64,000 nucleotides of DNA from a virus: positions 1-64,000 of IMG/VR virus record IMGVR_UViG_3300047362_000477, one strand, 5' to 3'. Position 1 is the first letter of the stretch, and each line of letters starts with the position of its first letter. This document shows positions 4,125-49,820 of this stretch, piece by piece. The notes beneath the pieces are model-generated. The model was not told where the DNA came from. It made no database searches and was given only the letters and a program-made list of their open reading frames with translations. Position numbers and translations under genes: made by a program.

Positions 4125-4894
4125 ATCCTTTTACTAAATGGTTAGATGAACATAAAAGTATGGGAGGCTATGTAGCTTCTTCATATGTTAATTGGGATAT
4201 ACTACATGATCCTGGTAGCGATATAGTAAAACTATTAGAGCAGTTTAAAGATATTCCATTTGAAGCAGTAATGGAATTTGCTGAATCAGATACATTTGAT
4301 AATGAAATGGGTTATAGAGATATCTGCGAAGATGCTAGTAAACTATTCTTCTTAACTGAACTTGTACAGTTTAATGAACTATTATATTATCCACAAATAA
4401 TACACGAGCCTTGGCATAATAGATATAGGGTACATCCAGGTAGTGGAAGACTACAGGCACTTTGGCTATGTGGTTATAATCAACTAAAATGTATCTATAC
4501 TCATTTTAACGAACCAGAATTTATTCCACCAGGAGATTGTTTTGAAATAGAAAATAAAAGACAATTTGACAGAGAAATAATGCTAAAGCCTGATCAATTA
4601 AAATGGCACTTTGAAGTATATGAAGCTTTTCCAAAAAATAAACAAGAACAAATATGGACCAAACGTAGAGATAGGGAATGGGATTGGACTCATACAAAAA
4701 CAGACAATCCTTGGAAATTTATGAGATTTAGTGAAGGTCCTGACTTTGCACATCACAAAAAGATGTGGAGAAGTTATTCTATTGATGGTTGGGAAGATTT
4801 ACAACACGACCATATACAATTAGGCAATACTGTTTTTGAGTTTGATAATAAAGGTAAAGTAAGTAACGTTACTAGAAGTTTAAATACGAAATAG
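4115..4894 (+). CDS. hypothetical protein
   Basis: A 259-residue soluble protein, rich in Trp, Asp and His, with no family I recognise. The segment RVHPGSGRLQALWLCGY (about 139-155) is compact and glycine-bearing, loosely like the loops of ParB/sulfiredoxin-fold proteins. It overlaps the SGNH-like gene by 10 bases, so the pair is probably made together. Its 3' end overlaps the convergent sulfotransferase-like gene by 23 bases, with no terminator between them. Confidence 0.6.
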   Translation: MRIDPFTKWLDEHKSMGGYVASSYVNWDILHDPGSDIVKLLEQFKDIPFEAVMEFAESDTFDNEMGYRDICEDASKLFFLTELVQFNELLYYPQIIHEPWHNRYRVHPGSGRLQALWLCGYNQLKCIYTHFNEPEFIPPGDCFEIENKRQFDREIMLKPDQLKWHFEVYEAFPKNKQEQIWTKRRDREWDWTHTKTDNPWKFMRFSEGPDFAHHKKMWRSYSIDGWEDLQHDHIQLGNTVFEFDNKGKVSNVTRSLNTK

Positions 4895-5576
4895 TAACAT
4901 CATGTTTTAATCCCATAAGTGGATCTTTACTATCCCATCTATATCCTTCTAAATGTTTTATGTGATTATCTAGTGGTGTGTCTGGTGTAGGATTTACATT
5001 CCATTTATTTTTGAAATGCCCTAGACTTGCAATATAAGTATCAAGTCCATATTCGTATATAGCTTTTCTAGCTAGTAGTACTTCTTCTTTTAATTTCTCT
5101 TTTCCATACTCGTTGTTTTTATAAAATTCTTTATAGTGTGGATAAGGTGTATCAGGTCCACCTACACTAGACCAACCATCATAACAAGCATTTGGTGGTC
5201 TTGTAACAATACAAAATTTACTTTCAGGAAACATTTCAATCATCCAATCTATATTATAGATAAATTGATGACAACGAACAATATAGTTTTTATCCATATT
5301 CCATTCAGGCCATGCTTGAGTTATTTCATTAAATATCTCTTCTTTAGACATTGTGTTAATGTTATGAAAGTTTTTTCCTAGTTCATTTCCTGGTCCAAAG
5401 TAAACACCAGTATGACGTACATTACCCCATCTAGTATCGTGTTGTAGTAGTCTTTCTGGAGTTCTGTCGCCAATGTCTATATTAAGTTCTGGTATTTCAC
5501 TTAACACCCAACTTACTGCACTCCATTTACTACCAGGAGCACCAGTTACCCAAATTACATTACTGAAGTCTCTCAT
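4872..5576 (-). CDS. sulfotransferase-like protein
   Basis: A 234-residue protein. The start VTGAPGSKWSAVSWVL resembles the 5'-phosphosulfate loop of PAPS-dependent sulfotransferases. FCIVTRPPNACYDGWSSVGG in the middle resembles the 3'-phosphate-binding Arg/Ser region. It is a clear relative of the product of 56357-57028: both have GxPGSxWS, a TPER segment and a YxGPG turn. It is last in a tightly overlapping - strand cassette with an adenylation enzyme and a GNAT-like protein, which suggests tailoring of a small molecule or surface group. A kinase or non-catalytic P-loop protein is an alternative. Confidence 0.5.
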   Translation of the reverse strand: MRDFSNVIWVTGAPGSKWSAVSWVLSEIPELNIDIGDRTPERLLQHDTRWGNVRHTGVYFGPGNELGKNFHNINTMSKEEIFNEITQAWPEWNMDKNYIVRCHQFIYNIDWMIEMFPESKFCIVTRPPNACYDGWSSVGGPDTPYPHYKEFYKNNEYGKEKLKEEVLLARKAIYEYGLDTYIASLGHFKNKWNVNPTPDTPLDNHIKHLEGYRWDSKDPLMGLKHDVTISYLNF

Positions 5577-6327
5577 CTAACCACCTTTTAATTTTCTTAT
5601 AATCTATATCTAATGTAGTGTTTAGAACTTGTTCGTGATTAACTGTTTGTCTAAATACACTATTTGAAAACATCTTAGCATATATTTCTTTGGTAAGCAT
5701 TGGCTCATATTTTTCATGCCAAAACTTTTTCTTTCTTTCAAAAGCCCATACATCTGCTAGTGTTAAATCTTCTTTTTTACCTTTTAATATCTCAAGATAT
5801 GTTAAGTATCTATTATCTTCTGGAACTATTCCTTTGTGTCTTACATATGCTGGAAACTCTTTTACTATTTCCATCCATCTTTTTGTTGTTTGTTTAGCAT
5901 CATGAATAATATTAATAATTAATGCATTAGGAAAATGTTCTAATATTTTACTAGGCATACTGTGAGTACAATATATTACTCTTTTATCGTCATCAAATAT
6001 ATCTTGTCCACCATTTTCTACAAACAATTCATCAAATAGTTTATAGTATTGTTTTTCGTTTGGTATATATTTTTCTATATAATCATGTGTTGGTGGAAGT
6101 TTTCCTTTAGGTGTAATTCTATCAAAATGAAATCTACTTAATTTACGTTGTCTAATATGATCATCTACAATACCAACGTTCCAAGGATTAATACCGTTTT
6201 CTTTAGAACTATACCAATACATACAAGGCATTGTTGCTAGAACTCTAGCTAGTTTATGACCACTAGCACCTTGTTCAAAACTAACAAATAACCATTTATT
6301 TTTTTCTTTACGAACTTTTTCTGCCAT
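5560..6327 (-). CDS. sulfotransferase-like or P-loop-like protein
   Basis: A 255-residue protein. LFVSFEQGASGHKLARVLATMP (about residues 13-34) is a strand-loop-helix start like those of sulfotransferase-type enzymes, and DDKRVIYCTHSMPSKI with IINIIHDAKQTTKRW follows the same alternating pattern. Similarity is to the architecture rather than to strict motifs. It overlaps both neighbours (17 and 20 bases), so it is translationally coupled between the adenylation enzyme and the clearer sulfotransferase-like protein. Confidence 0.4.
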   Translation of the reverse strand: MAEKVRKEKNKWLFVSFEQGASGHKLARVLATMPCMYWYSSKENGINPWNVGIVDDHIRQRKLSRFHFDRITPKGKLPPTHDYIEKYIPNEKQYYKLFDELFVENGGQDIFDDDKRVIYCTHSMPSKILEHFPNALIINIIHDAKQTTKRWMEIVKEFPAYVRHKGIVPEDNRYLTYLEILKGKKEDLTLADVWAFERKKKFWHEKYEPMLTKEIYAKMFSNSVFRQTVNHEQVLNTTLDIDYKKIKRWLDERLQ

Positions 6328-7012
6328 AATACCAATACTGTCCTTCCTTATGTTTAACTACATCTCCGGTAGCAAACCAATCTTCGTATACACTTAAATC
6401 TCCTTTTATAGATAATTCATCAGTCCATTCTGATATATCTATATTTACAAATAATTCATCACCCATTATTGTACAGGTACGTCCATCTATTTCAATATCT
6501 TTTGCTTCTGGACTAGATGGAGTGAATGTTTTATTAATTGCTATAGGTCCTACTTCGCTCATACCCCAATTTGCTATAAACGTACAACCTTTGTTTACAA
6601 AACTATTAATTATACTAGCAGGAACTCTGTCACTGCCACACGCAATAATCTTTCCTGTTAGATCTATATCTTTCCAACTTTTAGTTCTAGTAATTGCTTT
6701 TGCCATATCTGGTGTTAAATGACTATGACTAAAATCTTTAATTTTTTTAACCCAGCTAAATGGATTAAACAATTCCATATGAACCTGTGCTTTTATTTCT
6801 ATAGCAGGTAATGTTTGTGCAAACAACCCACCTGCATGGTCCATACTACATACAGTATAAACTTTGCTGTCTTTTGTAATCATCTGTACATCTCTAGCAA
6901 CTTTATTTGCTGACTTAATTTTTTCAACAGGTTGATGTATGGGTTTACTAGGCCCGGTGGTACCACTAGTATAAATTGTTGTACCTTCATTTAGAATTTT
7001 TATTAAGTTCAT
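6308..7012 (-). CDS. minimal AMP-forming adenylation enzyme (ANL superfamily)
   Basis: A 234-residue protein with the key ANL signatures: YTSGTTGPSKPI (14-25, phosphate loop), NWGMSEVGP (148-156, adenine/acyl region) and WFATGDV...YYGRKSS (212-234, ribose and hinge region). Full-length ANL enzymes have about 450-600 residues. This one lacks the usual N-terminal 150 residues or so and stops at the hinge, so the C-terminal lid with its catalytic Lys is missing. The family activates carboxylic acids as acyl-AMP; the OSB-CoA ligase (MenE) group looks nearest. It may only adenylate, with a partner doing the transfer. It overlaps both neighbours in the cassette. Confidence 0.75.
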   Translation of the reverse strand: MNLIKILNEGTTIYTSGTTGPSKPIHQPVEKIKSANKVARDVQMITKDSKVYTVCSMDHAGGLFAQTLPAIEIKAQVHMELFNPFSWVKKIKDFSHSHLTPDMAKAITRTKSWKDIDLTGKIIACGSDRVPASIINSFVNKGCTFIANWGMSEVGPIAINKTFTPSSPEAKDIEIDGRTCTIMGDELFVNIDISEWTDELSIKGDLSVYEDWFATGDVVKHKEGQYWYYGRKSS

Positions 7013-7277
7013 CTTTTAATTTTTTCCAGTCTGGATGTTGTGGCAAATACTTATGAAGCCCTATTGCCTGATTAATGATCATTTCTAATAATTTAAAATT
7101 AAACAATGGAGGAAATATTCCATGAATAATACTAGCAAATGCCATGAATAATTGTTTTCCTGCTTCTCTGAATGCTATGTACATATGTATAAAATAATGT
7201 ATTACAGGATTCTTCTTTTTTCTTTTGTTCAAAGAATCTGCTATACCTAAATGTTTCCAATCAAACCATTGTTTCAT
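6987..7277 (-). CDS. small membrane-associated protein, DUF6356-like
   Basis: A 96-residue protein with a basic N-terminus and two hydrophobic or amphipathic helices (HYFIHMYIAFREAGKQ, then LFMAFASIIHGIFPPLF) followed by LHKYLPQHPDW. This pattern recalls small proteins of the DUF6356 type found near surface-sugar genes; the assignment is from memory of the pattern. It overlaps the GNAT-like gene by 17 bases and the adenylation gene by 26. It may hold the cassette enzymes at the membrane. Confidence 0.45.
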   Translation of the reverse strand: MKQWFDWKHLGIADSLNKRKKKNPVIHYFIHMYIAFREAGKQLFMAFASIIHGIFPPLFNFKLLEMIINQAIGLHKYLPQHPDWKKLKDELNKNSK

Positions 7278-7773
7278 AATATTTTTCTATATTGAGTTTC
7301 CATACTGATTGACGTTGTCCATAAATTTCTTCTTCAGTAAAAAAATCAACTACTCCTTGTTTTGCTAATAAATGAAATAGTCTATCTGTTCTATTCATTT
7401 TTCCACTTGCATCATTTTCTACATTAGTAGTAATGTATGCAGGTTTTGTGTCTGAGCTACCTGCCCATTTTAATTGTTCTGGTAATATCCATTTCCATGG
7501 AATACTAGTCATGTGTTTTTTACTTAATCCGTGTTGAGCTGGCATAGTTTGAACTCCTCTAAAAAGCATTCTATGTCCATCGTGAAATTCGTGGCAACCC
7601 GCCATTGAAACAATAATATCATTATGATAAACTGCCCACCATTCACCGTTGTGCTTTTTAACCCAATCATATTTCATTGCGTCTAGATCAGCATTATTCA
7701 TATAGCCCATATCTTGGCAGATATAACCAAAAAACTCAATATCTCTTTTTCCAGGATCTTCTTTTACTATCAT
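7261..7773 (-). CDS. GNAT-like acyltransferase
   Basis: A 170-residue protein, first gene of the - strand cassette. WWAVYHNDIIVSMAGCHEF followed by MLFRGVQTMP fits the beta2-beta4 part of a GNAT acetyltransferase, and YITTNVENDASGKMNR with a final strand (SVWKLNIEKYY) fits the later part. It resembles the divergently transcribed protein of 8173-8766 in layout (IIVSMAG versus LLAMSG). The classical Q/RxxGxG/A loop is not obvious, so acyl-CoA binding is uncertain. Next to an adenylation enzyme, acyl transfer is plausible. Its promoter is at 7783-7810. Confidence 0.45.
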   Translation of the reverse strand: MIVKEDPGKRDIEFFGYICQDMGYMNNADLDAMKYDWVKKHNGEWWAVYHNDIIVSMAGCHEFHDGHRMLFRGVQTMPAQHGLSKKHMTSIPWKWILPEQLKWAGSSDTKPAYITTNVENDASGKMNRTDRLFHLLAKQGVVDFFTEEEIYGQRQSVWKLNIEKYYETMV

Positions 7774-7782
7774 GATATTCTT

Positions 7783-7810
7783 ATTATATACATACTTATT
7801 TATCTGTCAA
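7783..7810 (-). promoter_or_regulatory. sigma-70-like promoter for the - strand cassette
   Basis: On the - strand: TTGACA (7805-7810), a 16-base spacer and TATAAT (7783-7788), a full consensus match 10 bases from the GATATC-ATG start region at 7773. GATAAATA (7797-7804, - strand) lies within the spacer, so a late sigma factor may use the same site. It is back to back with the + strand promoter at 7818. Confidence 0.75.
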
Positions 7811-7817
7811 TGATTGA

Positions 7818-7846
7818 TTGACATTAAATGATAAATAGTGTAGTAT
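7818..7846 (+). promoter_or_regulatory. promoter with leader stem for gene 7888
   Basis: TTGACA at 7818-7823, a 17-base spacer and TAGTAT at 7841-7846. GATAAATA (7830-7837), a T4-late-like motif, lies in the spacer. Downstream, GTACC-AGATA-GGTAC (7856-7870) could form a small stem in the leader before the AAAGGAG site. Promoter quality is moderate because the -10 matches at 4 of 6 bases. Confidence 0.6.
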
Positions 7847-7887
7847 ATACAAAATGTACCAGATAGGTACGTTAAAGGAGAATTATA

Positions 7888-8160
7888 ATGGCTTTTATAA
7901 GAACTATAGACGTGGTTACTACTAACGGTAATACCTACGATACTTCAGAAGAGTTTACTGCTGAACATGGCCCAATGGGTACTGAAAATACTAATTACAT
8001 TACCGACAGTTCAATAACTCTTAATGAAGCTAAAGATGGTGTTAGAATTGTACTACATTACGTTGATGAAGCAACTTGGCAATCTCATAAAGATGCGGCG
8101 GCAGATGACGTTGCGGCTAAAGATATTACCATTTCTGAAGTAAGTAACGAAACAGTATAA
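7888..8160 (+). CDS. hypothetical protein
   Basis: A 90-residue protein with an AAAGGAG ribosome site. It is mostly beta-strand (FIRTIDVVTTNGNTYDTSEEF, later VRIVLHYVDEATWQSH) and has an acidic, Ala-rich tail. Its own promoter pair, including a late-type motif, suggests a separately controlled and perhaps abundant product such as a virion accessory protein, but no family is recognised. Confidence 0.6.
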   Translation: MAFIRTIDVVTTNGNTYDTSEEFTAEHGPMGTENTNYITDSSITLNEAKDGVRIVLHYVDEATWQSHKDAAADDVAAKDITISEVSNETV

Positions 8161-8172
8161 TCAGAGCAAACA

Positions 8173-8766
8173 ATGATCACATTGATCGATGTTATCAAAC
8201 ACCCTGAATACCAAGACAGTCTATTAGACTTTGTTTTTCGTATTGAGGATGATGTTCATCATAACAAAAATAATTATAAAGATTTTGAAAATCGTCTTAA
8301 AGAGTATTCCAGTTTTACAATACTCTTAGACGATGATCAAACTTTATTAGCTATGAGCGGACTATATAGAGTTGATAGCTGGCCTAAACACGTGGCAAGA
8401 GGATTGGATAGGACCTATTACTTTAATTGGCCAGAAGTAAAAAGTGGATTCAATATGCAAAGAAAATATGCAAGTCAATATATGTGGCCGTATCAAGTTA
8501 AACGTGCAGAAGAACTTGGATATAGAGGTGTGTTTGTAAGTATTCAAAAAAACAGAAGAGCATTTACTGACTTTGTTGGAAACATAAAAGAATTTCAACC
8601 TAGCATACTGCCAGGTTATTATAATACTTGTCATGTACATGATGAGGTTATCAATTCAGCACAAACCTGTTGGCAAAACCTAGCAATATATAAAATGAAA
8701 CCTTTTACTAGTTTAGATATGCCAAATATCAGCGAAGAAGAATATAAAAAGAGATATAAAAAATGA
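8173..8766 (+). CDS. GNAT-like protein
   Basis: A 197-residue protein. FTILLDDDQTLLAMSGLYRV followed by RGLDRTYYFNWPEV gives the strand pair of GNAT acyltransferases, and RAEELGYRGVFVSIQKNRRAF resembles the later helix-strand segment. It shares its layout with the - strand protein at 7261-7773. Its end overlaps the start of the radical SAM gene (ATGA type), so the two are coupled. A role in acylating the product of that enzyme is possible but unproven. Confidence 0.5.
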   Translation: MITLIDVIKHPEYQDSLLDFVFRIEDDVHHNKNNYKDFENRLKEYSSFTILLDDDQTLLAMSGLYRVDSWPKHVARGLDRTYYFNWPEVKSGFNMQRKYASQYMWPYQVKRAEELGYRGVFVSIQKNRRAFTDFVGNIKEFQPSILPGYYNTCHVHDEVINSAQTCWQNLAIYKMKPFTSLDMPNISEEEYKKRYKK

Positions 8767-10461: not shown

Positions 10462-11338
10462 ACTAGCATTCTTTGGAACCAGCCATACGTATGGTGATTG
10501 TGCAGAAGGTATTTCGCACAATAATGGTCAAAAGAAATTTGTAAAGACACCTTGGCCAGAGCTATTTGCTAAACACTTAAACAAAGAATTTTATAATTTT
10601 GGTATAGGTGGTTCTGATAATCAGACTATGTTAGATGCTATACTAGAAGCATTTAGTAGAGGCACAATGGATGAAGTTGATACATTAATACTTGAACCAA
10701 GATTGTCTTATGATGCTATTAGATTACCATATGATTATATAGGGTATAAACCTAAAGCTAATTCTGAATATGGTCGAAACGAGTACACAACACATTGGCT
10801 TGATACAGGAAGGCATACACAAGAACATAATTGGCCAGATACATATCCACGTACAGAAGAGCTTTGGGTTAGATTTGCATTAAATGATTTAAAGGATGAA
10901 GCACGGTTTAGAAGAAGAATGAATGCAGATTATCTTGGAAACATACATGATAGAGATTTAGAAGATAAAGATATAAAAAAGTTTGTAGAGCTGTCAAAAT
11001 TATATGTAAGTAATTCTCATTATTTAGATTATTTAAATTTTCAGTTTCTTAAAAATGTATATACAATATGTAAAGGGTATGGTATAAAGTTTTACTGGTT
11101 AAATTTTGAATCAAATAGATTTCAGAAATTTTTTACAGATGAAAGAGAAGTATATTGGGAAAATGAGCAACAGTTATTAGACTTATGTATAAACCCTAAA
11201 CAGATTGTTAGAAATTATATTAAAGAAGCAAAACTTGCACAAGACACGGAATGTTCATGTGGACATTTTAACGACTATGCACAACCATACATAAGTGCAT
11301 ACTTATTAAAAGGATATAATGAAAGAAAAAATAGTTAA
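10445..11338 (+). CDS. SGNH-hydrolase-like protein
   Basis: A 297-residue protein starting at a TTG that overlaps the QueD-like gene by 17 bases; no ATG is suitably placed before the conserved block. LAFFGTSHTYGD (7-18) is a GDSx-like nucleophile block with Ser13. NFGIGGSDNQTM fits the Gly/Asn block, and CSCGHFNDYAQPY near the end holds a candidate catalytic His. It is longer and more divergent than the SGNH-like protein at 3426. Activity is inferred from these blocks only. Its end overlaps the SufT-like gene by 20 bases. Confidence 0.55.
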   Translation: MSHRNKLAFFGTSHTYGDCAEGISHNNGQKKFVKTPWPELFAKHLNKEFYNFGIGGSDNQTMLDAILEAFSRGTMDEVDTLILEPRLSYDAIRLPYDYIGYKPKANSEYGRNEYTTHWLDTGRHTQEHNWPDTYPRTEELWVRFALNDLKDEARFRRRMNADYLGNIHDRDLEDKDIKKFVELSKLYVSNSHYLDYLNFQFLKNVYTICKGYGIKFYWLNFESNRFQKFFTDEREVYWENEQQLLDLCINPKQIVRNYIKEAKLAQDTECSCGHFNDYAQPYISAYLLKGYNERKNS

Positions 11339-11609
11339 CAACCTAAAAGAAGTGTTTGACCCAGAGATGAGTATAAACGTGTATGACTTAGGTTTAATAT
11401 ATGAGATAAATATTAATGAAGCACACGTTGATATAGTAATGACATTAACTAGTGCATTCTGTCCAGCCGCAGATGAAATTATTGCAGATGTTCATAACGC
11501 AGTCACCAAAGTAGAAGGTGTAGAAACGTGTGATGTAAAAGTTACATTTGATCCTCCATTTGGTCCGGACAAGATGTCAGAAGATGCTAGACTAATATTA
11601 GGCATTTAA
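11319..11609 (+). CDS. sufT: SufT/MIP18-family Fe-S assembly protein
   Basis: A 96-residue protein of the MIP18 (DUF59) family. FDPEMSINVYDLGLIYEI (13-30), the strand VDIVMTLTSAFCPAADEI with the conserved Cys near residue 47, and VKVTFDPPFGPDKMS are the family hallmarks. Bacterial SufT and eukaryotic MIP18 help deliver Fe-S clusters to target proteins. It is the first of five Fe-S-related genes in this stretch, which matches the many radical SAM enzymes encoded elsewhere in the window. Normal length for a single-domain member. Confidence 0.85.
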   Translation: MKEKIVNNLKEVFDPEMSINVYDLGLIYEININEAHVDIVMTLTSAFCPAADEIIADVHNAVTKVEGVETCDVKVTFDPPFGPDKMSEDARLILGI

Positions 11610-11625
11610 AAATTAAGGGGACGAA

Positions 11626-11979
11626 ATGACTTACTTGGTCACAGAAAATTGCATCAAGTGTAAACATATGGATTGCGTAGAAGTATGTCCAGTTGATTGT
11701 TTTTATGAAGGAGATAACTTTTTAGCGATCAATCCAGATGAATGTATTGATTGTGGAGTATGTGAACCTGAATGTCCAGCTGATGCTATTGTTGCAGATA
11801 TTGCATTAGATCCAGGAGAGCTAGATTATTGGACAAAGGTTAATACTGAGATGGCTGAAAAGTGGCCAAACATAACAGTAGCTCGTCCACATGATAAACC
11901 ACCTGATTGGGAAGAATGGGACGGTAAACCAAATAAGAGAGAACTATTATCAGAAGAACCAGGAAAGGGCGATGAATAA
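11626..11979 (+). CDS. fdxA: seven-iron ferredoxin (FdxA type)
   Basis: A 117-residue protein very close to bacterial FdxA. It has Cys9, 12, 17, 21, 25, 40, 43, 46 and 50 in the [18 protein letters not shown] and [12 protein letters not shown] arrangement. In FdxA three of these hold a [3Fe-4S] cluster and four a [4Fe-4S] cluster. The tail ([10 protein letters not shown], then DWEEWDGKP) is also FdxA-like. It can pass single electrons, which radical SAM enzymes need to cleave SAM. The acidic Glu-rich C-terminus extends a little past the usual end. A GGGG-type site precedes the ATG. Confidence 0.92.
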
Positions 11980-12549
11980 ATGATACAAACAGAACCGACA
12001 CCAAATCCAAATGCATTAAAGTTCATGCCATTGCGTGATGTAAGAGGTAATAAAGGACCATTGCATTATAAAAAAGATTCAGATAAAAATCCTAAAGAAG
12101 AATCAGATATAGCTAATTCTTTATTTGGAATAAAAGGTATTAAAGATGTATTTTTTGGTTCTGACTTTATTACTATTGGTAAAGAAGATATTGTAGAATG
12201 GGAAGAGATTAAAGAACCAATCATATTTCTTATAGAAGCCAATAGTGGGTTACCGTTTGTAAAAGAAAAAATTAAACCAGCCTGTGATACAATTAATAGT
12301 GATGCAGGTGAAAGTAAAGTTATCAAAACAATAAAAAAATTATTAGATGAAAGAGTAAGACCTGCTGTCGCAATGGATGGCGGCGATATACTATTTCACG
12401 GATATCACGAAGGTATTGTAAAATTAGAAATGTATGGTGCTTGTAGTGGTTGTCCTAGCTCATCAGCAACTTTAAAGATGGGTGTTGAAAATATGCTGAA
12501 GCATTATATTCCGGAAGTACGAAAGGTAGAGCAAGTATATGAGAACTAA
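11980..12549 (+). CDS. nfu: Nfu-type Fe-S scaffold/carrier
   Basis: A 189-residue protein with two domains. The Nfu N-terminal domain covers about 1-95 (TEPTPNPNALKFMP at the start is typical). The NifU C-terminal domain covers about 115-189, with CSGCPSS carrying the cluster-binding Cys155 and Cys158. Nfu proteins dimerise around a [4Fe-4S] cluster and give it to enzymes such as lipoyl synthase, itself a radical SAM enzyme. It starts directly after the ferredoxin stop and overlaps the next Nfu-like gene by 11 bases. Confidence 0.9.
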   Translation: MIQTEPTPNPNALKFMPLRDVRGNKGPLHYKKDSDKNPKEESDIANSLFGIKGIKDVFFGSDFITIGKEDIVEWEEIKEPIIFLIEANSGLPFVKEKIKPACDTINSDAGESKVIKTIKKLLDERVRPAVAMDGGDILFHGYHEGIVKLEMYGACSGCPSSSATLKMGVENMLKHYIPEVRKVEQVYEN

Positions 12550-12895
12550 AGAAGAAATACTAAAACACATTGAAGAAGTTATGAAAGAATATGTTGATCC
12601 AAACGTAGCACAACATGGTGGTAAAGTTAATGTTATTGATTTTGATATGGAATCAGGAACATTACATTTACAAATGAGTGGCTCTTGTAGTGGGTGTGCT
12701 GGTAGTACACAAACATTATCATATGGAGTAGAGCAAACATTAACACATTTTGTAGAAGAAGTAAAAGCTATTACTAGTGAAGATGATGCTATGTATAGTG
12801 ATCCATATTATGTTTCAGATCCAATGAGTATGTATGATTATTCAGAACCTGATCCAGGCTTAGACTTGGAAGAAGGCGAGAGTGATGGCAGTTAA
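12539..12895 (+). CDS. second NifU C-terminal-domain protein
   Basis: A 118-residue protein with a NifU C-terminal domain: NVAQHGGKVNVIDFD (22-36) and MSGSCSGCAGSTQTL (46-60), with Cys50 and Cys53. An acidic tail follows from about residue 83. It lacks the N-terminal domain of its neighbour, so the phage carries a full-length and a short Nfu side by side. The two may form mixed dimers or serve different targets. It overlaps both neighbours. Confidence 0.88.
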   Translation: MRTKEEILKHIEEVMKEYVDPNVAQHGGKVNVIDFDMESGTLHLQMSGSCSGCAGSTQTLSYGVEQTLTHFVEEVKAITSEDDAMYSDPYYVSDPMSMYDYSEPDPGLDLEEGESDGS

Positions 12896-13223
12896 AGTTT
12901 TTTTTATTGCAAAGATAAAAGACTTTAATGATGAATATAAAGACTATGTTAGCCGTGTACGTGACTTAGGTGAAGCACACGATGGTTTTATTAGTTTAGA
13001 AAATGTAGAAATAGGTGATATAGAAATCACTGTTACTACTTGGCGTAGCAAAGAAGATGTTGCTGAATGGGCAAAAGATCCTGTTCATGTATCAGCAAAG
13101 AAAAAAGCTATGCAATGGTATCATTGGGTAAGAGGTTATCATGTAGAAACACCAGACCCAGGACCTACTATGAAAAAAGAATTTATGAAGAGCGAACCAA
13201 AAGATGGAAAAGATAAAAGTTAA
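12885..13223 (+). CDS. ABM-domain (dimeric alpha-beta barrel) protein
   Basis: A 112-residue protein resembling the antibiotic biosynthesis monooxygenase fold: VKVFFIAKIKDFNDEYKDYVSRV, then FISLENVEIGDIEITVTTWRSKEDVAEWAKDP, then HVSAKKKAMQWY. Relatives are small cofactor-independent oxygenases or simply dimeric binding proteins. A GTG lies one codon earlier, but the ATG is preferred. It overlaps the previous stop by 11 bases. Its role in an Fe-S cluster context is unknown. Confidence 0.6.
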   Translation: MAVKVFFIAKIKDFNDEYKDYVSRVRDLGEAHDGFISLENVEIGDIEITVTTWRSKEDVAEWAKDPVHVSAKKKAMQWYHWVRGYHVETPDPGPTMKKEFMKSEPKDGKDKS

Positions 13224-13374
13224 TACAGACGAAGCTGATCAATTCGGAATATCTGACAGAGAACTTATTAAAACATTATATAGAAAAATACTTATGTTGG
13301 AAGACCGTATTGTTAATTTAGAAGTTGATAACGAAGCTCATGAAGAGTGGATGAAAAATAGAGAAAATAAATGA
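13204..13374 (+). CDS. small coiled-coil protein
   Basis: A 56-residue charged protein whose ATG lies inside the end of the ABM gene and whose TGA overlaps the next ATG. The second half (MLEDRIVNLEVDNEAHEEW) has heptad spacing and should form a coiled coil. Function unknown; the exact overlaps support it as a gene. Confidence 0.55.
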   Translation: MEKIKVNTDEADQFGISDRELIKTLYRKILMLEDRIVNLEVDNEAHEEWMKNRENK

Positions 13375-13892
13375 TTAGAAATTTAAAAAAGTATATTAGA
13401 ACAGTTCCTGATTATCCTGTAAAAGGTGTTAACTTTTATGATTTAAATAGTTTATTTGCTAGTGATCTATGGCATCCATTGGTTACTGAAATGGCTAATA
13501 TGGATTTTGAACAAATACCAACACACATTTTAGGAATTGAAAGTAGAGGCTTTGTATTAGGGTCAGCAATAGCTCATGAATTATGTTTGCCATTTGTAAT
13601 GGTTCGTAAAAAAGGTGCTAAATACCCAGGTAAGCTATTAGAAGAATCTTATGAGTTAGAGTATGGAACTGATACACTAACATTACAAGAAGGTATACTA
13701 GGGCATACTAGTAGAGTATTAATTGCAGATGACTTAATTGCCACTGGCGGTAGCATGATTGCTACAAAAAAGTTAGTAGAACAGACTGGTGCAATAGTTG
13801 AAGGTGCTATTACGATTGTTAATTTAAAATATCTTAACAAATCAGAATTAAGCAACATAGATATAAGTTCTGCATTGGAGATAGATAAATGA
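13371..13892 (+). CDS. apt: adenine phosphoribosyltransferase
   Basis: A 173-residue protein, normal length for the family. IRTVPDYPVKGVNFYD at the start, GIESRGFVLGSAIAHEL in the middle and the PRPP-binding motif VLIADDLIATGGS (116-128) are characteristic. APRT joins adenine and PRPP to make AMP and pyrophosphate. Its PRPP could come from the synthetase at 17395. Its adenine could come from the nucleosidase-like protein at 52376, which may cleave the 5'-deoxyadenosine and SAH left by SAM-dependent enzymes. It sits between Fe-S genes and overlaps the A-type carrier by 4 bases. Confidence 0.93.
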   Translation: MIRNLKKYIRTVPDYPVKGVNFYDLNSLFASDLWHPLVTEMANMDFEQIPTHILGIESRGFVLGSAIAHELCLPFVMVRKKGAKYPGKLLEESYELEYGTDTLTLQEGILGHTSRVLIADDLIATGGSMIATKKLVEQTGAIVEGAITIVNLKYLNKSELSNIDISSALEIDK

Positions 13893-14269
13893 TAAAAGTA
13901 ACAGATACCGCATCTGAACATTTAAAAAATATAAGTGAAGCTAATGATGGCAAAATTCCTTGCCTAGGATTAAAGGGAGGCGGGTGTGCAGGATTTAGTT
14001 ATGATTGGACACTAAAAGAAGAATCAGAACTTGACAAAAAATCTGATCATGTTATAATAATGGATAACGGTGCAAAGATGGCTGTTGATGGAACTAGTAT
14101 TATGTACTTGATTGGTACTACTCTAGAATTAAAAAGAGACACCTTTGGTACTACACTTGAGATAGTTAATCCTAATTCACAAAGTTCATGTGGATGTGGT
14201 GAAAGTGTAAACTTTAATATGGAAAAAATTGAAGCCAATCAAGATCAAATTACACAATTAAAAGGATAA
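13889..14269 (+). CDS. A-type Fe-S carrier (IscA/ErpA/SufA family)
   Basis: A 126-residue protein with the three conserved Cys of the family: Cys33 in GGGCAGFSY, and Cys101 and Cys103 in SSCGCGES. Length is near the usual 105-120 plus a short charged tail. A-type carriers take clusters from the scaffold and pass them to [4Fe-4S] enzymes, ErpA and IscA being needed for many of these in bacteria. With SufT, two Nfu proteins and FdxA it makes five Fe-S genes in 3 kb. I cannot tell IscA from ErpA by eye. Confidence 0.92.
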   Translation: MIKVTDTASEHLKNISEANDGKIPCLGLKGGGCAGFSYDWTLKEESELDKKSDHVIIMDNGAKMAVDGTSIMYLIGTTLELKRDTFGTTLEIVNPNSQSSCGCGESVNFNMEKIEANQDQITQLKG

Positions 14270-34341: not shown

Positions 34342-35384
34342 TCAAAGAACTCCGGACAGGCAAGTTTAAAATTTGTACCCATTAATTTATCTTTTATAGC
34401 CATGTGTTTTAATAATTCGTTATATACATTTTCGTTGTATTCATATTTTGTTTCTATTTCATATCTTTCTCGTAAACTATTATTCAAGCTACGATATGTT
34501 AAGTAGCTTGGTCTATATATTTCAACACTTTTAGAAAATAGTATTCCTTCACTTTTAGCCCATTGTTCAGCTAGTTTATCTTGTGCCGCATTTATTGACA
34601 TAGGCAAATAGTTTATGGTTAGACTAAAATTGTCGTTGTGCATTGCAATTTTCTGAAAATGTTTTAAGTTTGCAGATACTTCTTTCCATTTAGCACCTGC
34701 TCTAATATATTCAAATCTATCTTCAATTCCATCTATACTTACTAAAAAGACAACTTGCTTAAATGATAATAACATTTTTAGCATCTCATCGTCAAGTGGT
34801 ATAGTTCCGTTAGTGATAATACTTAAACGTACTGCTGGTGATACTTCATCTTCATATAACTTTTTAATAATCTTTCTTACGTGTGGAATCATAAATGGTT
34901 CACCACCTGTAAATTTTAAATACTTTGTATCATATAAATTTTCCATCATTTGTGGCAGTATATCTTTATGCCACCCAGTTTTAAGTTTAGCTTCATTTTT
35001 AACTACATTTAACCATTCTTCATTTGGATTTTGATTTACTAGATTATGCCATTTACTGCTACTTGTAGGGTTACACATTACACAGGTTAGGTTACAAGTA
35101 TTGTGCAATTTTAAATCCCAATATTGAATTCCTTCTGCACCTTCAAACCATTCGTTAGCTTCCATTCGTAAACTTGTATTACCTCTGTCTTCTTCTGCTT
35201 TACATTCGTAGCAGTTAGGTAACCACTTGTCTAAACTTTTATCATATAATTCATCAAATTTTTCTCGCCAGCCAGATTCGTTATATCTTTGATCTATATC
35301 TTCATTCATGTACATACAACAAGGTCGTACGTTTCCTACTGGTCCTATTGTCATACCATGTTTAAACATTAAACATTTTGGCAT
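34338..35384 (-). CDS. radical SAM enzyme, shorter island type
   Basis: A 348-residue protein. The N-terminal module starts MPKCLMFKHG and has VRPCCMYMN (Cys22, 23) and LPNCYECK (Cys58, 61). The core has LHNTCNLTCVMCNPTSSS (Cys97, 101, 104) and LKFTGGEPFMIPHVRK. FLVSIDGIEDRFEYIRAGAKW follows the island pattern. It is shorter than the 400-residue members and resembles 40015 in the style of its front module. It overlaps the hydroxylase-like gene by 23 bases. Confidence 0.9.
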   Translation of the reverse strand: MPKCLMFKHGMTIGPVGNVRPCCMYMNEDIDQRYNESGWREKFDELYDKSLDKWLPNCYECKAEEDRGNTSLRMEANEWFEGAEGIQYWDLKLHNTCNLTCVMCNPTSSSKWHNLVNQNPNEEWLNVVKNEAKLKTGWHKDILPQMMENLYDTKYLKFTGGEPFMIPHVRKIIKKLYEDEVSPAVRLSIITNGTIPLDDEMLKMLLSFKQVVFLVSIDGIEDRFEYIRAGAKWKEVSANLKHFQKIAMHNDNFSLTINYLPMSINAAQDKLAEQWAKSEGILFSKSVEIYRPSYLTYRSLNNSLRERYEIETKYEYNENVYNELLKHMAIKDKLMGTNFKLACPEFFE

Positions 35385-36147
35385 AATTCTCGTTTACTTT
35401 CTTTTTAAATGCAATACCCGGTCCACCGTCAAATATCATATGTATTCTTGGTTCATCACTTCGATTCCATACTGCGTGTTTATATCCAGTATTTATTTTA
35501 AAAACTGTTCCATGTTTAAAAGGCATAGTTCCATATTCTTCCATAACTAAAGAACACCCATCTGGATTATTAATAGCAACGTTTGTTGCTCCCAATCCAG
35601 GTACTTTATCCACATCTTTATGCGGTGCTATATAACCACCTGGTAACAAACACATAAATCTTACTCTTGTAAAATCATCGTATAACATTTCATCTTGCAT
35701 CCATTCTTTTGTAAGTGGTGCAAACTTTGCAATATCAGTCCAATCACTTAAATCTTTTTCTGCCCTGTCTGGCATATTATAATCTTCTGGACAATTTGTA
35801 TGTACACTACTCATACCGTGTATACATAGGCTCATCCAACCTCCTGATCCTGCAGATCTATGATTTGTAAAACATTCAGTTTCCATTAAATGATATGCTT
35901 CTCTTTTAATATCTCCCCATGGCACATTTATATCATGTAATCTTACCCAAGGAACTCGTGTGTTATCTCCAATATAGTCTATATCGTCTGATGCATCTAA
36001 TTGTACTTTATCTGCTGAAGCAGGATTTTTATCAAAGTTTTCCCATATATCAAAATGCTCTCGAGTCTCATCATCAACTCTTTCCCACCAGTCACTTTGA
36101 AAACCAGTTTTTTTACTTCTGTATCTATCAAATTTCCTCATATCCAA
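35362..36147 (-). CDS. aspartyl/asparaginyl beta-hydroxylase-like oxygenase
   Basis: A 261-residue protein. MCLLPGGYIAPHKDVDKV (165-182) supplies His176 and Asp178. FKINTGYKHAVWNRSDEPRIHMIFDG supplies His224 and the 2-oxoglutarate-binding Arg234. This is the aspartyl/asparaginyl beta-hydroxylase arrangement. Such enzymes add a hydroxyl to an Asp or Asn side chain or to related small molecules, consuming oxygen and 2-oxoglutarate. Between radical SAM genes on one side and two paralogous unknown proteins on the other, it may tailor the same product. It overlaps both neighbours. Confidence 0.75.
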   Translation of the reverse strand: MDMRKFDRYRSKKTGFQSDWWERVDDETREHFDIWENFDKNPASADKVQLDASDDIDYIGDNTRVPWVRLHDINVPWGDIKREAYHLMETECFTNHRSAGSGGWMSLCIHGMSSVHTNCPEDYNMPDRAEKDLSDWTDIAKFAPLTKEWMQDEMLYDDFTRVRFMCLLPGGYIAPHKDVDKVPGLGATNVAINNPDGCSLVMEEYGTMPFKHGTVFKINTGYKHAVWNRSDEPRIHMIFDGGPGIAFKKKVNENYAKMFNV

Positions 36148-40025: not shown

Positions 40026-41154
40026 TATACTTTAATATACTGGCAAACTTTGGTGCCATACTTATATCTTGTCCTCTGTGTTTTAAAACTTTGTTTAGCT
40101 CTGCTATATACTTCTCACTATTATCAATGTTTGATTCTGTATTAATAAGTCTTTTAATCATTTTATAAGAACTTTTAAACTTACCTGCATTTTTATTAAA
40201 GCCACCGTACTGTGACTCTATCATAAAATCAAGTGTCTTTTTATACCATTCAGGCCAATGCCTAATACTCATATAATGAGGTTCTTCTACAATTTGTAAC
40301 ATAACATCAATACCTTTATGCACTCTAGCCCAATGTATAAATTCGTGTAACTGTGGAGCATTAATTACACTTAAAGTGGTGGCTGTAGCTATTTTTAAGC
40401 GTCCTGTAGCGTCTTTAAACTCTATCCACTTGTCAAGTGTTGCTTCTATCTTATCCCACTTACTAGGGTAACGTAGAAGCTCATTTGTAGTTCCTACTCC
40501 GTCAATACTAGGACTTAAATCTATTTGTTTAAACTTTAATAATGCGTCATGCTCTAATTTTGCTGGAAACCATGTACAGTTTGTAAATATTTCTAAATGT
40601 ATTTGTTCTGCTATTCCATGATCAGCTAATCTTACAATTAGGTTTAAAAATTGTTTATGTAAAAATGGTTCACCACCTGTTACTTTAATATACTTCACGT
40701 GTTTTAGATCATCAATGTTGATATTATCTAAATCATATTCTTGTACTTCTTTTAATTTAGTAATCTTTTCTTGACTACTGATACCTAATGCTAGTTCATC
40801 TTTATCCCAATTATGACTATATTCACTACCACAACTTAGACAGGCTAGATTACACAATCTACCTACAGTTATTTCTAGATACTCAAGTCTTACAGTATCG
40901 TCAAAGTCATTAAAGAATTGATCTGCTTCTGTTCTCATACTTGATCCATTATTAGCTTCGTCTATTTTACATTTGTAACAACCAGGATGCCATTTGTTTT
41001 GCATCATTAGTTTTCTAATATCTTCAAAATCATTATGATCATTTGGTCCCAGAAATCTATTGTGAAATCTACAACATGGTGTATTTGGTACACCATGCAT
41101 AAGCATCTTACCCTTAAATGGATAAGCACAAGCATATTCTGGAAGTCTAGCCAT
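40015..41154 (-). CDS. radical SAM enzyme, shorter island type
   Basis: A 379-residue protein. The front module has YACAYPFKGKMLMHGVPNTPCC (Cys9, 27, 28) and PGCYKCK (Cys59, 62). The core Cys101, 105, 108 lie in VGRLCNLACLSCGSEYS, and IKVTGGEPFLHKQF is the SAM loop. DLSPSIDGVGTTNELLRYPSKW follows. It starts directly against the PLP-enzyme-like gene (one-base overlap), which suggests that the two products act together. Confidence 0.9.
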   Translation of the reverse strand: MARLPEYACAYPFKGKMLMHGVPNTPCCRFHNRFLGPNDHNDFEDIRKLMMQNKWHPGCYKCKIDEANNGSSMRTEADQFFNDFDDTVRLEYLEITVGRLCNLACLSCGSEYSHNWDKDELALGISSQEKITKLKEVQEYDLDNINIDDLKHVKYIKVTGGEPFLHKQFLNLIVRLADHGIAEQIHLEIFTNCTWFPAKLEHDALLKFKQIDLSPSIDGVGTTNELLRYPSKWDKIEATLDKWIEFKDATGRLKIATATTLSVINAPQLHEFIHWARVHKGIDVMLQIVEEPHYMSIRHWPEWYKKTLDFMIESQYGGFNKNAGKFKSSYKMIKRLINTESNIDNSEKYIAELNKVLKHRGQDISMAPKFASILKYNDR

Positions 41155-42059
41155 TACTCAGTAAATTTTCCTTTCTTCTTATGTTGTCTTACTTCTTTAC
41201 CAATGTTAACTCTGTTGTACAATCCATCTCTATGATACTCGTCCCACTTTGGACCTTTAGGTGCTAGTCCAATATGAACTGTGTTTGTAGCTTCAAATCC
41301 ATAGTGTTCACATACTGCTAACTGACTGCTCATATAATTGTTTGGATGGGTATCAGGACTAAACTCGTTCATTAATCTATTTCCAATAGCAATGTTCAAA
41401 TGATTTAAATGATTCCATTCATTCTGTACAGGAACAGTTCCTTCGTCAATATTTGAGAAAGCTATACCTGTTCTCCAATTACCACAACTTAATCCTTTGG
41501 TAGTACTAAACACTACCATTTTAATACAAGGCTCAACAAAATTAATTTCAATATCGTAACAAGTACCAAACCAAGCACAATCAATTAATACAGGAACATC
41601 TTTTTCATTGCATTGTTTTATTACGTCATAGTATTGTTCAGGTACTCTACCTGTTCCACTAAATGGCACACTTATTAATATTGCATCACCAGATTGTATT
41701 CCAGTATCATCAATACTATCATGCCACTCCATTGGGTGATTAATTTGTGCATCTCTATTGTATGGAAACTCTCCACGAAACATTTTTAAGTTATATCCAT
41801 TCACCTGTGTCCAATGATGCCACCAGGCTAATGATTGTATTGTACCATCTGTAACATATCTATTTTTAAATGTTTCTACACCTGTAAAACTATTCAACTT
41901 ACTACTAGCTATCCATTTAGGATAATTCTCTAACAATATATTTCCTTCATCTGTTATTGTACTAGGATCAATATTGGGAAAGTATTCTTTTACTAGAAAA
42001 TCCATATATGGTTGATGCCATATACTATTTCCTGTTTTACTAAAATTGGGATTACTCAT
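41154..42059 (-). CDS. PLP-dependent aminotransferase-like protein (fold type I)
   Basis: A 301-residue protein. ILISVPFSGTGRVPEQYYDVI (127-147), VPVLIDCAWFGTCYDI (155-170), with Asp160 as the pyridine-N partner, and FSTTKGLSCGNWRTGIAFS (184-202), with Lys188 as the candidate PLP lysine and Arg196, reproduce the core of class I/II aminotransferases. Length is about 80-100 residues short of typical enzymes, mainly at the C-terminal small domain. It could be an aminotransferase, decarboxylase or C-S lyase on the island's product. It overlaps both flanking radical SAM genes. Confidence 0.7.
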   Translation of the reverse strand: MSNPNFSKTGNSIWHQPYMDFLVKEYFPNIDPSTITDEGNILLENYPKWIASSKLNSFTGVETFKNRYVTDGTIQSLAWWHHWTQVNGYNLKMFRGEFPYNRDAQINHPMEWHDSIDDTGIQSGDAILISVPFSGTGRVPEQYYDVIKQCNEKDVPVLIDCAWFGTCYDIEINFVEPCIKMVVFSTTKGLSCGNWRTGIAFSNIDEGTVPVQNEWNHLNHLNIAIGNRLMNEFSPDTHPNNYMSSQLAVCEHYGFEATNTVHIGLAPKGPKWDEYHRDGLYNRVNIGKEVRQHKKKGKFTE

Positions 42060-44359: not shown

Positions 44360-44704
44360 TTATCCGCTAAAGTCCATTCTCCAAGGATACATTGTGTATC
44401 CTGCTGGCTTTAAAATATATTCTTCAAACAATATAATAAGTACGATACCAAACACATACTTTACCCATGTAGGCCAAGTGTTTTGCCATCTTGTAAATGG
44501 TTTCAATATCCACATCCAAAAACTTGCTACTTTACCCCAAAACCAATCACCAATATTAAATGGTGGCGTTTTCCATAAAACTACTGGAATGAAAAGATAC
44601 CATATCCAAACTGGTATTTCATCTGTTGGTTCAGATGCATATATTAGGAAACACACTATTGCTAATAGATATATTCCAATGTAATTTTTTAAATGATTAT
44701 ACAT
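44360..44704 (-). CDS. membrane protein with about three helices
   Basis: A 114-residue Trp-rich membrane protein. The helices lie at about 7-22 (IGIYLLAIVCFLIYA), 30-45 (PVWIWYLFIPVVLW) and 80-97 (WVKYVFGIVLIILF). The ATG at 44704 overlaps the amidinotransferase stop (ATGTATAA), the same overlap form as tail 2; the earlier start is a GTG. It could be a membrane anchor or exporter part for the island's product. No family recognised. Confidence 0.6.
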   Translation of the reverse strand: MYNHLKNYIGIYLLAIVCFLIYASEPTDEIPVWIWYLFIPVVLWKTPPFNIGDWFWGKVASFWMWILKPFTRWQNTWPTWVKYVFGIVLIILFEEYILKPAGYTMYPWRMDFSG

Positions 44705-45761
44705 AACTCTCACAATCTCCTTCTCTAACTATATCACTCGTTAAGCAATGTATGCCACCATCCCAAAAATACTGATGTCTAAAATTCCAGTAAATTGGTT
44801 CAATACCATGTGCTTCCATTTCAGCAAAGGCGGCTTCGTTCTTGCCTGTGCAGATTACTGTGTTCTCATCTAACGATAATACGTTAACATCAAATACACT
44901 TTCGTCTGGACAGCCTACCCAATGCTCTAGCCATTTGCTTACATACTCTGTATGAAATCTTTGCTTACGAGTATTTTGAAAATCTTCTGGCATATCAAAA
45001 TCATCTGCTACTTCAATGATAGTCCAGTTCTTCATTTCTTCTGGTACCCAGTTTTTATTCCAGGTCATTAGTACACCAGGTTTCAGCAATGCAATTTTGC
45101 CATCGATATGTCCTCCGACTGGTATGTCCAAAAATTGTGTCTTAGGATATCGCAACTTTATTTCACGTTGAATCCACTCACGGCCCAGTTCCGTACCTTT
45201 ACCTCGCTTATTGTCTCCCTCATAGGGTTGGCTAAACAACACGCGGTCCCCACACTTTATCATGTTAGCCGCATGATAAAGTAAGCGATGATTCTCTACA
45301 AAGTAGTCGTATTTTTTACCACTCTCAATCATTGCTCCTGGCATACTAACCCAATCAGCACCTTCACGAAACCATTTACTACAATGGTCGTAGTATGCTA
45401 GATTCTCAAAATATCTATTATCACTACCTGTATAAATTTCAAATATTGTATTACCGTAAGGCATTAATGTATCACGTGGCATTAATGGATGATTAGGAAA
45501 TCTACAATGCATCCAAGGTAGCTGAATTTGCTCGCCACCGGTGATTGTAAATATGTCTTTTGGCCTTACGACCTCAACACCTTTGCTTTTTAATATATTT
45601 TCTAGTATGGTTAAATCTTCGGCAGTTTCTCTGAATATTTGTTCCATGACAGTTCTGGTCTCTTCGTCCTTATGCCATTCAAATGTTTCTGGAGGAAACG
45701 GAGCACCTAATATAACCCGTTTGAGCGGTTGAAACTCGCTCCATACATTAACTGATTTCAT
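44697..45761 (-). CDS. amidinotransferase/guanidino-modifying enzyme (first copy)
   Basis: A 354-residue protein of the amidinotransferase (pentein) superfamily. The His/Asp block is VGGHIDGKIALLKPGVL (His218, Asp220). The catalytic Cys339 is in FWDGGIHCLTSDIVREG, and PLKRVILGAP opens the fold. Relatives include glycine amidinotransferase (arginine plus amine gives a guanidino compound and ornithine), DDAH and arginine deiminase. A second member lies at 49816. It is the first gene of the - strand operon that runs down to 26209, so guanidine transfer may open the pathway. Confidence 0.85.
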   Translation of the reverse strand: MKSVNVWSEFQPLKRVILGAPFPPETFEWHKDEETRTVMEQIFRETAEDLTILENILKSKGVEVVRPKDIFTITGGEQIQLPWMHCRFPNHPLMPRDTLMPYGNTIFEIYTGSDNRYFENLAYYDHCSKWFREGADWVSMPGAMIESGKKYDYFVENHRLLYHAANMIKCGDRVLFSQPYEGDNKRGKGTELGREWIQREIKLRYPKTQFLDIPVGGHIDGKIALLKPGVLMTWNKNWVPEEMKNWTIIEVADDFDMPEDFQNTRKQRFHTEYVSKWLEHWVGCPDESVFDVNVLSLDENTVICTGKNEAAFAEMEAHGIEPIYWNFRHQYFWDGGIHCLTSDIVREGDCESYV

Positions 45762-48910: not shown

Positions 48911-49738
48911 TTAAGTTACAGTATTTTGTTTATCTAAAGCACTAATCATTCTTGTCATGCCTATACCACCGCCTACACGTGGGAAGAAGTCAAACTTTAA
49001 GAACTCTTCTAGTTCTGCTTGTACTCGTTCTTTACCAAATAGTTTAAATAATAGTTCACTATATGCACCTTCTGTAATAGTATGAAATGTATCTCGCATT
49101 TGTTCTACATCACATGAACGTTCTGCACTTCCTATTGTTTCCATTCCACCTAGTATTACATCAATCTTCTTTGATTCTGTGTCACCAGGATATCTACTCA
49201 TATTCCAAAAAGGACTTGTGAATTCTGGAAAGTCTGTAATCATTGCAGTTTTAAAGTCTTCGTACATTTTAGTTTCATGTTCTGCCTTTAGCTCACCTTC
49301 AACACCATAATGACTTTGCCAATCAGCATATGTCATTTCGTATGGTTTTTCAAAGCCTAAGTAATCTACTAGTTCGTATTCCATTTCTTTTAAATTGTCA
49401 ATGTTACCTGGCATTTCAAATTCAAACATTGGAAATATTATATCGTGTCTACCTGGAATAGCATTTGGCTCTTGTCTATAGCTGGTACTTACACAAAAGA
49501 AACCTTTTGCATTAGGGTCTGTAAGTAATTCGTGTTCAAGCCACATTTGACCTGTTTGTGGAAGTGGCCATACTTGACCTGCATAATTGTATGTTGCTAC
49601 ATTAAATGGATCTTCACAAGCGGCAAGTATTGATAATCTGTTTTGGGTATGGACTTCTTGGAAACCTTTAGCCAAAAAAAATGACCTTAAAAGGCCAACT
49701 GCGTCTGTAAATTTTTGTGGGGATATTAACTGTGTCAT
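48911..49738 (-). CDS. class II aminoacyl-tRNA-synthetase-like core, no anticodon domain
   Basis: A 275-residue protein with motif 2 (FFCVSTSYRQEPNAIPGRHD, Arg88 and Glu90, then IFPMFEFEMP) and motif 3 (VGGGIGMTRMISAL, Arg263) of class II synthetases, nearest to the Asp/Asn/Lys group. The OB-fold anticodon-binding domain is absent. Such free cores include asparagine synthetase A, EpmA and others that activate an amino acid for something other than tRNA charging. I use the ATG at 49738, which has AAGGAAAA before it; the longer frame would begin at a TTG among A-tracts. In this cluster it may supply aminoacyl-AMP for the product. Confidence 0.78.
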   Translation of the reverse strand: MTQLISPQKFTDAVGLLRSFFLAKGFQEVHTQNRLSILAACEDPFNVATYNYAGQVWPLPQTGQMWLEHELLTDPNAKGFFCVSTSYRQEPNAIPGRHDIIFPMFEFEMPGNIDNLKEMEYELVDYLGFEKPYEMTYADWQSHYGVEGELKAEHETKMYEDFKTAMITDFPEFTSPFWNMSRYPGDTESKKIDVILGGMETIGSAERSCDVEQMRDTFHTITEGAYSELLFKLFGKERVQAELEEFLKFDFFPRVGGGIGMTRMISALDKQNTVT

Positions 49739-49812
49739 TTCTTTTTCCTTTTCATTGTTCAAAAAAAAATATTTGATAGCCAAAAAAAAATCTGATTAAT
49801 TTGTTATCGTTT

Positions 49813-49820
49813 TATTTATC
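49813..49820 (-). promoter_or_regulatory. GATAAATA late-promoter-like motif
   Basis: On the - strand GATAAATA lies about 75 bases before the aaRS-like ATG, just inside the end of the second amidinotransferase gene. Two T9 tracts (- strand) lie between it and the ATG. Confidence 0.4.

Follow-up and report, generated by a model that had tools for sequence, protein, structure and literature searches.

The adenylate-forming enzymes of the ANL superfamily are described as two-domain machines; their lid, which is mobile and bears a catalytic lysine, swings around so that the second half-reaction can be completed. Past motif A7, normal members continue with this lid domain of about 100 residues, and in many of them the A10 lysine assists adenylation. 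The literature search returned nothing on the function of DUF6356 and no link between this family and a minimal ANL core. The titles and abstracts covered did not describe any naturally lidless ANL core either, but they are a limited sample and weak evidence of absence. Here, a DUF6356 protein and a lidless ANL core are found together in a five-gene phage cassette.

The window, i.e., the whole stretch of 64,000 nucleotides that was analyzed, comes from a virus record of 99,491 bases, a 99.5-kb fragment of a marine phage. Among the phage families encoded in the window are a clamp loader and an endolysin-like protein. The nearest cultured relatives of the clamp loader are those of Pseudomonas jumbo phages of ~287 kb (52.8% identity), which makes it likely that the record derives from a large phage and covers part of its genome. 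A search for the T4-type gp23 capsid protein gave no match, and the control genomes were equally without one, so that this result is uninformative.

The cassette occupies positions 4872–7773 on the minus strand. From its first gene to its last, it encodes a GNAT-fold protein (7261–7773, 170 aa), a small putative membrane protein of the DUF6356 family (6987–7277, 96 aa), the minimal ANL core (6308–7012, 234 aa), a sulfotransferase-fold protein, ST2 (5560–6327, 255 aa), and a sulfotransferase-like protein, ST1 (4872–5576, 234 aa). A previous sequence-only reading of this DNA described five overlapping and coupled minus-strand genes sharing one consensus promoter. All five open reading frames are indeed present, with overlaps between successive genes of 17, 26, 20, and 17 nt. 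Gene set and order are kept in relatives, so the lack of conservation that this reading had named as its refutation is not what we find. Because gene set and order are conserved, and because dN/dS ranges from 0.06 to 0.30 in all five genes (comparisons with L024 and L011), chance is excluded as an explanation of the cassette.

The promoter is also as described: a σ70 site, TTGACA-16-TATAAT, matches the consensus at 12 of 12 positions (7783–7810, minus strand), with 9 nt between the end of its −10 box and the first ATG of the cassette. An identical site, with the same hexamers and spacing, is found in five near relatives (L024, L011, L033, L034, and L037), at 6–9 nt from the ATG. Given this spacing, the transcript is probably leaderless, starting at or next to the start codon. 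A divergent promoter-like site (10/12) faces the plus-strand gene at 7888. Within the intergenic region (7774–7887), the −35 boxes of the divergent promoters lie inside an inverted repeat, TGTCAAT-GATTG-ATTGACA; located between the cassette and a gene of 90 aa (7888–8160), this repeat may be an operator. The pairing of this gene with the cassette is kept in several relatives. A second, faintly GNAT-like protein (8173–8766), with no Pfam match, adjoins the cassette.

The third gene of the cassette is a true ANL core, homologous to ANL enzymes. Its product matches PF00501 (AMP-binding) with 44.1 bits (E = 1.6e-11; curated cut-off 29.9), at positions 168–331 only of a profile of length 384. Motifs A3, A5, A7, and A8 are present, and an alignment of 45 viral homologs has invariant positions in A3, the A4 region, A5, A7, and A8. 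The AlphaFold2 model, a structure prediction proposed along with the original description, is a compact and confident ANL fold (pLDDT 94.1, pTM 0.91), and its top structural matches are all ANL enzymes. The best Foldseek match is Staphylococcus aureus MenE (3ipl, E = 3.8e-13), and VIA-align gives Z scores of 22.5 for oxalyl-CoA synthetase (5ie2, rmsd 2.7, 225 residues aligned), 21.1 for a fatty acyl-AMP ligase, and 19.9 for MenE.

The reduction of this protein is a property of the whole family. Among 128 homologs of 200–300 aa, the median number of residues before the SG of A3 is 19 and the maximum 52, such that the N-terminal region is incomplete, and every protein ends within 31 residues of A7, such that the lid and its A10 lysine are absent family-wide. 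Hence, the reduced form is, as judged from these proteins, the normal form of the family, and since two defining features fail (the lid and the complete N-terminal region), we class it as a reduced variant rather than a standard ANL member. The sequence-only reading thus correctly described an enzyme of about 234 residues with the phosphate loop, A5, and hinge and without the lid; most of the sequence before A3 is missing as well. The same reading had named a decayed remnant of a full-length ligase as the outcome that would overturn it. Apart from the protein being half the normal size, nothing suggests decay: the ends are nearly identical in all 128 homologs, there are no internal stops, the predicted fold is of high confidence, and dN/dS of this gene is 0.24 against L024 and 0.22 against L011. 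The minimal form is conserved and under purifying selection, and we reject decay, which is hardly credible in view of the conservation of the truncated form.

Whether such a core still catalyzes is less evident. It could be a pseudo-enzyme that forms no acyl-adenylate but serves as a sensor or scaffold, with ATP/AMP or an acyl-AMP as its ligand and DUF6356 or other partners under its control. Not one of the 128 homologs has a lid or an A10 lysine, the glycine of A7 varies (strict TGD in 73/128, TxD in many), and so do some residues of A3. Against this, the A5 glutamate and the A7 aspartate are invariant, the motifs WGM[ST]E.GP (A5) and W..T.D (A7) are found in 128 of 128 proteins, and conservation of the P-loop and pocket is strong, as it should be in a catalytic site: the strict A3 P-loop is found in 115/128, HAGG..AQ.LP in 126/128, and the GR hinge in 113/128. 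We regard a pseudo-enzyme as unlikely. In addition, H59, Q66, H96, W149, and M151 are invariant across viruses and, by motif position, would line the acyl pocket, which suggests one shared substrate.

A different possibility is that the core is one piece of a normal acyl-CoA/ACP ligase, with a full-length ANL protein of phage or host contributing the lid or N-terminal piece in trans. Many relatives do have a larger ANL-type protein (380–475 aa) a few genes away. However, the window record, which is incomplete, holds just one AMP-binding match and no lid domain, and in SAR11 no lid gene adjoins the pair formed by DUF6356 and the core. A lid supplied from elsewhere in the window record was rejected because AMP-binding_C (PF13193) has no match there, although the record is a fragment. 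A ligase in two pieces is very unlikely.

The second gene of the cassette had been described as a membrane-helix protein. A hydrophobic stretch at about residues 43–61 agrees with this, and the protein does look like a membrane protein by sequence, but the description is to be corrected in that it belongs to DUF6356 (PF19883, 26.2 bits for a cut-off of 24.4). Those of the relatives that were scanned likewise exceed the Pfam cut-off, and three histidines (H9, H31, and H52) are invariant among 34 aligned members (alignment A6). In 47 of the 80 viral contigs and 32 of the 48 cellular ones, the ANL core follows this gene immediately, and the two overlap or abut in viruses, SAR11, Methylophilaceae, and Gammaproteobacteria; the pair of SAR11 has a short-chain dehydrogenase gene before it. 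As it is absent from the immediate neighborhood at 33/80 viral loci and in 15/48 cellular contigs, DUF6356 is not strictly required near the core.

These counts come from a profile scan that identified at least 102 viral contigs with the ANL core, of which 80 were kept (48 distinct at 93% identity), and from a scan of genome contigs that identified 51 more carriers, mostly of SAR11 (Pelagibacteraceae), SAR116, Methylophilaceae, and Gammaproteobacteria. Cellular counts use 48 genome contigs and viral counts 80 loci, near-identical contigs included. In the contigs checked, the cellular copies adjoin IMPDH and GMP synthase, EF-G, ribosomal protein L13, FolD, or PEP carboxylase, and are therefore chromosomal; judging from neighbor genes, L139, L148, and L151 seem to be of viral origin and to have been binned with cells. 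Occurrence is patchy, since only 2 of 147 sampled SAR11-family genomes have a strong match (one is the query genome itself and the other is partial). In the tree, viral and cellular rows are intermixed, and the window groups with L024 and two SAR116 rows (support 100/97). Viruses and cells have apparently exchanged the gene, in one direction or the other. In the collection of cultured phages, MT839182 is the only record with a match to the core, too remote to be informative (25% identity); the GNAT, DUF6356, and ST2 proteins have no match there, and ST1 has partial matches in a single-cell marine virus.

The other partners are distributed differently. Of the 80 viral loci, 72 have a GNAT-family relative and 63 an ST2 relative close to the core, and no cellular contig (0/48) has either within the scanned range. 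ST1 accompanies the core less often, in 35/80 viral loci, and frequently on the other strand. In the search for the same five-gene order elsewhere, a check proposed with the sequence-only reading, GNAT, DUF6356, and ST2 recur beside the core, but ST1 is optional, and in cells the core has no GNAT or sulfotransferase genes near it. The five genes as a fixed unit can be rejected, on account of both the low frequency of ST1 and the occurrence of the core in cells both next to DUF6356 and without it. Fewer than five genes make up the functional core: in bacteria the DUF6356–ANL pair, or the ANL core alone, occurs without the rest.

The folds of the GNAT and ST2 proteins are best seen in a natural fusion, as both families form a single protein of 417 aa in L076 and L079. 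The model of the L079 fusion (pLDDT 88.4) matches sulfotransferases over residues 1–241 (curacin ST 4gbm, Z 11.4, rmsd 3.8, 182 residues aligned; TPST 5wrj, Z 11.1), and the best chains for residues 241–417 are all GNATs (Z ~11, Foldseek E = 1e-5). The GNAT protein of the window has no match to a Pfam family; it is 39% identical to L079 (alignment A7), and its family profile matches the GNAT structure 3t9y (E = 6e-4). The GNAT-like character previously assigned to it is therefore upheld by the model of its homolog. Matches to Acetyltransf_1 are found in 3 of 39 family members (best 0.0044), below the Pfam cut-offs, and the acyl-CoA loop, judged by eye as G-L-[SN]-[KR], appears to deviate. Similarly, ST2 of the window has no Pfam match, and the sulfotransferase matches of its family are weak (best 2.5e-4). 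ST2 rows were misplaced in alignments A7 and A9, and alignment A8 was used instead. In the ST1 family, 8 of 27 members match Sulfotransfer_3 (best 2.5e-5), with 12.7 bits for the window protein against a Pfam cut-off of 27; a paralog in the same phage (56357–57028, minus strand) is 30% identical to ST1 (alignment A5). No useful match came from sequence-profile searches of solved structures with ST1 and ST2. Each sulfotransferase family has one invariant histidine (H103 in ST1, H122 in ST2), which sits where the catalytic histidine of a KTHLP-like motif would be expected. Of the two sulfotransferase-like proteins previously proposed, ST2 thus has the fold, by way of the fusion model, and the assignment of ST1 is modestly supported by its family's Pfam matches.

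Several relatives have further genes in or near the cassette. Flavin tryptophan halogenase genes are inside it in L026, L029–L032, L052–L054, and L058 (PF04820 was tested on two), and an Asp/Asn-hydroxylase-like oxygenase is beside it in some. Genes resembling the tripartite tricarboxylate transporter components TctA and TctC, an unusual cargo for phages, are near it in L026–L032, L091–L093, and L102. In the window, the minus strand contains a long run of radical SAM-type genes (26411–55591), many with an N-terminal CxLPF...CC, of which some were tested against Pfam. Within this run are an Asp/Asn-hydroxylase-like oxygenase (35362–36147), an aminotransferase-like gene (41154–42059), and a class II tRNA-synthetase-like gene (48911–49783). 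Two genes resemble amidinotransferases or arginine deiminases, one with a weak ADI match of 0.0042 (44697–45761) and one with no Pfam match (49816–51048). Genes resembling iron–sulfur cluster assembly proteins and ferredoxin (NifU-, SufA-, and SufT-like by eye) are found at 11319–14269.

Instead of a lipid or small molecule, the substrates of the cassette could be virion proteins, such as tail fibers, which would be acylated, acetylated, and sulfated. The hydroxylase-like 2OG oxygenases, flavin Trp halogenases, and radical SAM genes of relatives are of the protein or peptide tailoring type, and the sulfotransferase half of the fusion matches tyrosylprotein sulfotransferase. Yet the DUF6356–ANL pair is present on bacterial chromosomes that lack virion genes, and DUF6356 looks like a membrane protein, which makes virion modification unlikely.

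In our view, the best explanation (probability about 0.45) is that viruses have built the cassette around a two-gene module, DUF6356 plus a lidless, half-size ANL core, that is also present on ocean-bacterial chromosomes. Since the nucleotide and pocket motifs are conserved, the core would bind ATP and one conserved carboxylic acid and form an acyl-adenylate. Ordinary CoA or carrier loading is less likely in the absence of a lid, as a lidless core would be unable to perform the thioester step in the usual way. The DUF6356 partner points to a membrane setting: the activated acyl group may be handed to a nucleophile at the membrane, with DUF6356 holding the core or supplying the acceptor side. 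In infected cells, the presence of the GNAT-fold and sulfotransferase-fold enzymes suggests further acyl and sulfo transfer to the same product, and the outcome would probably be a remodeled envelope or a small tailored molecule. The tailoring role suggested previously, on a lipid, sugar, or amino compound, is likewise a hypothesis rather than a result. Catalysis itself, even of the first half-reaction, is the least secure step, because the A10 lysine is gone, and we infer adenylation from conserved motifs; it also counts against this explanation that the GNAT and sulfotransferase families are below Pfam cut-offs and have deviating cofactor motifs. Only tentatively, then, do we propose a minimal adenylate-forming system, common to ocean bacteria (SAR11, SAR116, methylotrophs, and gammas) and phages, to which phages add GNAT and sulfotransferase steps that rework a molecule of the host envelope.

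A conserved and selected family of lidless ANL proteins raises the question of what the core does alone, which its small size makes quick to test. DUF6356 gains a candidate partner, and abundant ocean bacteria are linked to uncultured large phages through a common gene.

The cassette can be compared with described systems as follows. The 96-aa protein is a member of DUF6356, here tied to a minimal ANL core. Tryptophan halogenase genes have been annotated in T4-like cyanophages, and relatives of the cassette carry such a gene (PF04820) between GNAT and DUF6356, a place where the window has none. With PAPS sulfotransferases (4gbm, 5wrj), the N-terminal half of the fusion shares the fold, but the PAPS-binding loop is divergent and sulfate transfer remains putative. 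With GNAT acetyltransferases (9mto, 8iym, 3t9y), the C-terminal half shares the fold, but the acyl-CoA loop appears to deviate. The ANL core shares its fold and motifs A3, A5, A7, and A8 with MenE (3ipl), oxalyl-CoA synthetase (5ie2), feruloyl-CoA synthetase (8wev), and fatty acyl-AMP ligases (3lnv, 7r7f), at 12%–23% identity in structural alignments, but it has about 230 residues where these have roughly 450–570, and lacks the C-terminal lid, the A10 lysine, and most of the region before A3. As judged from the predicted structure, its closest relatives in the superfamily are MenE, the fatty acyl-AMP ligases, and the oxalyl-CoA synthetases.
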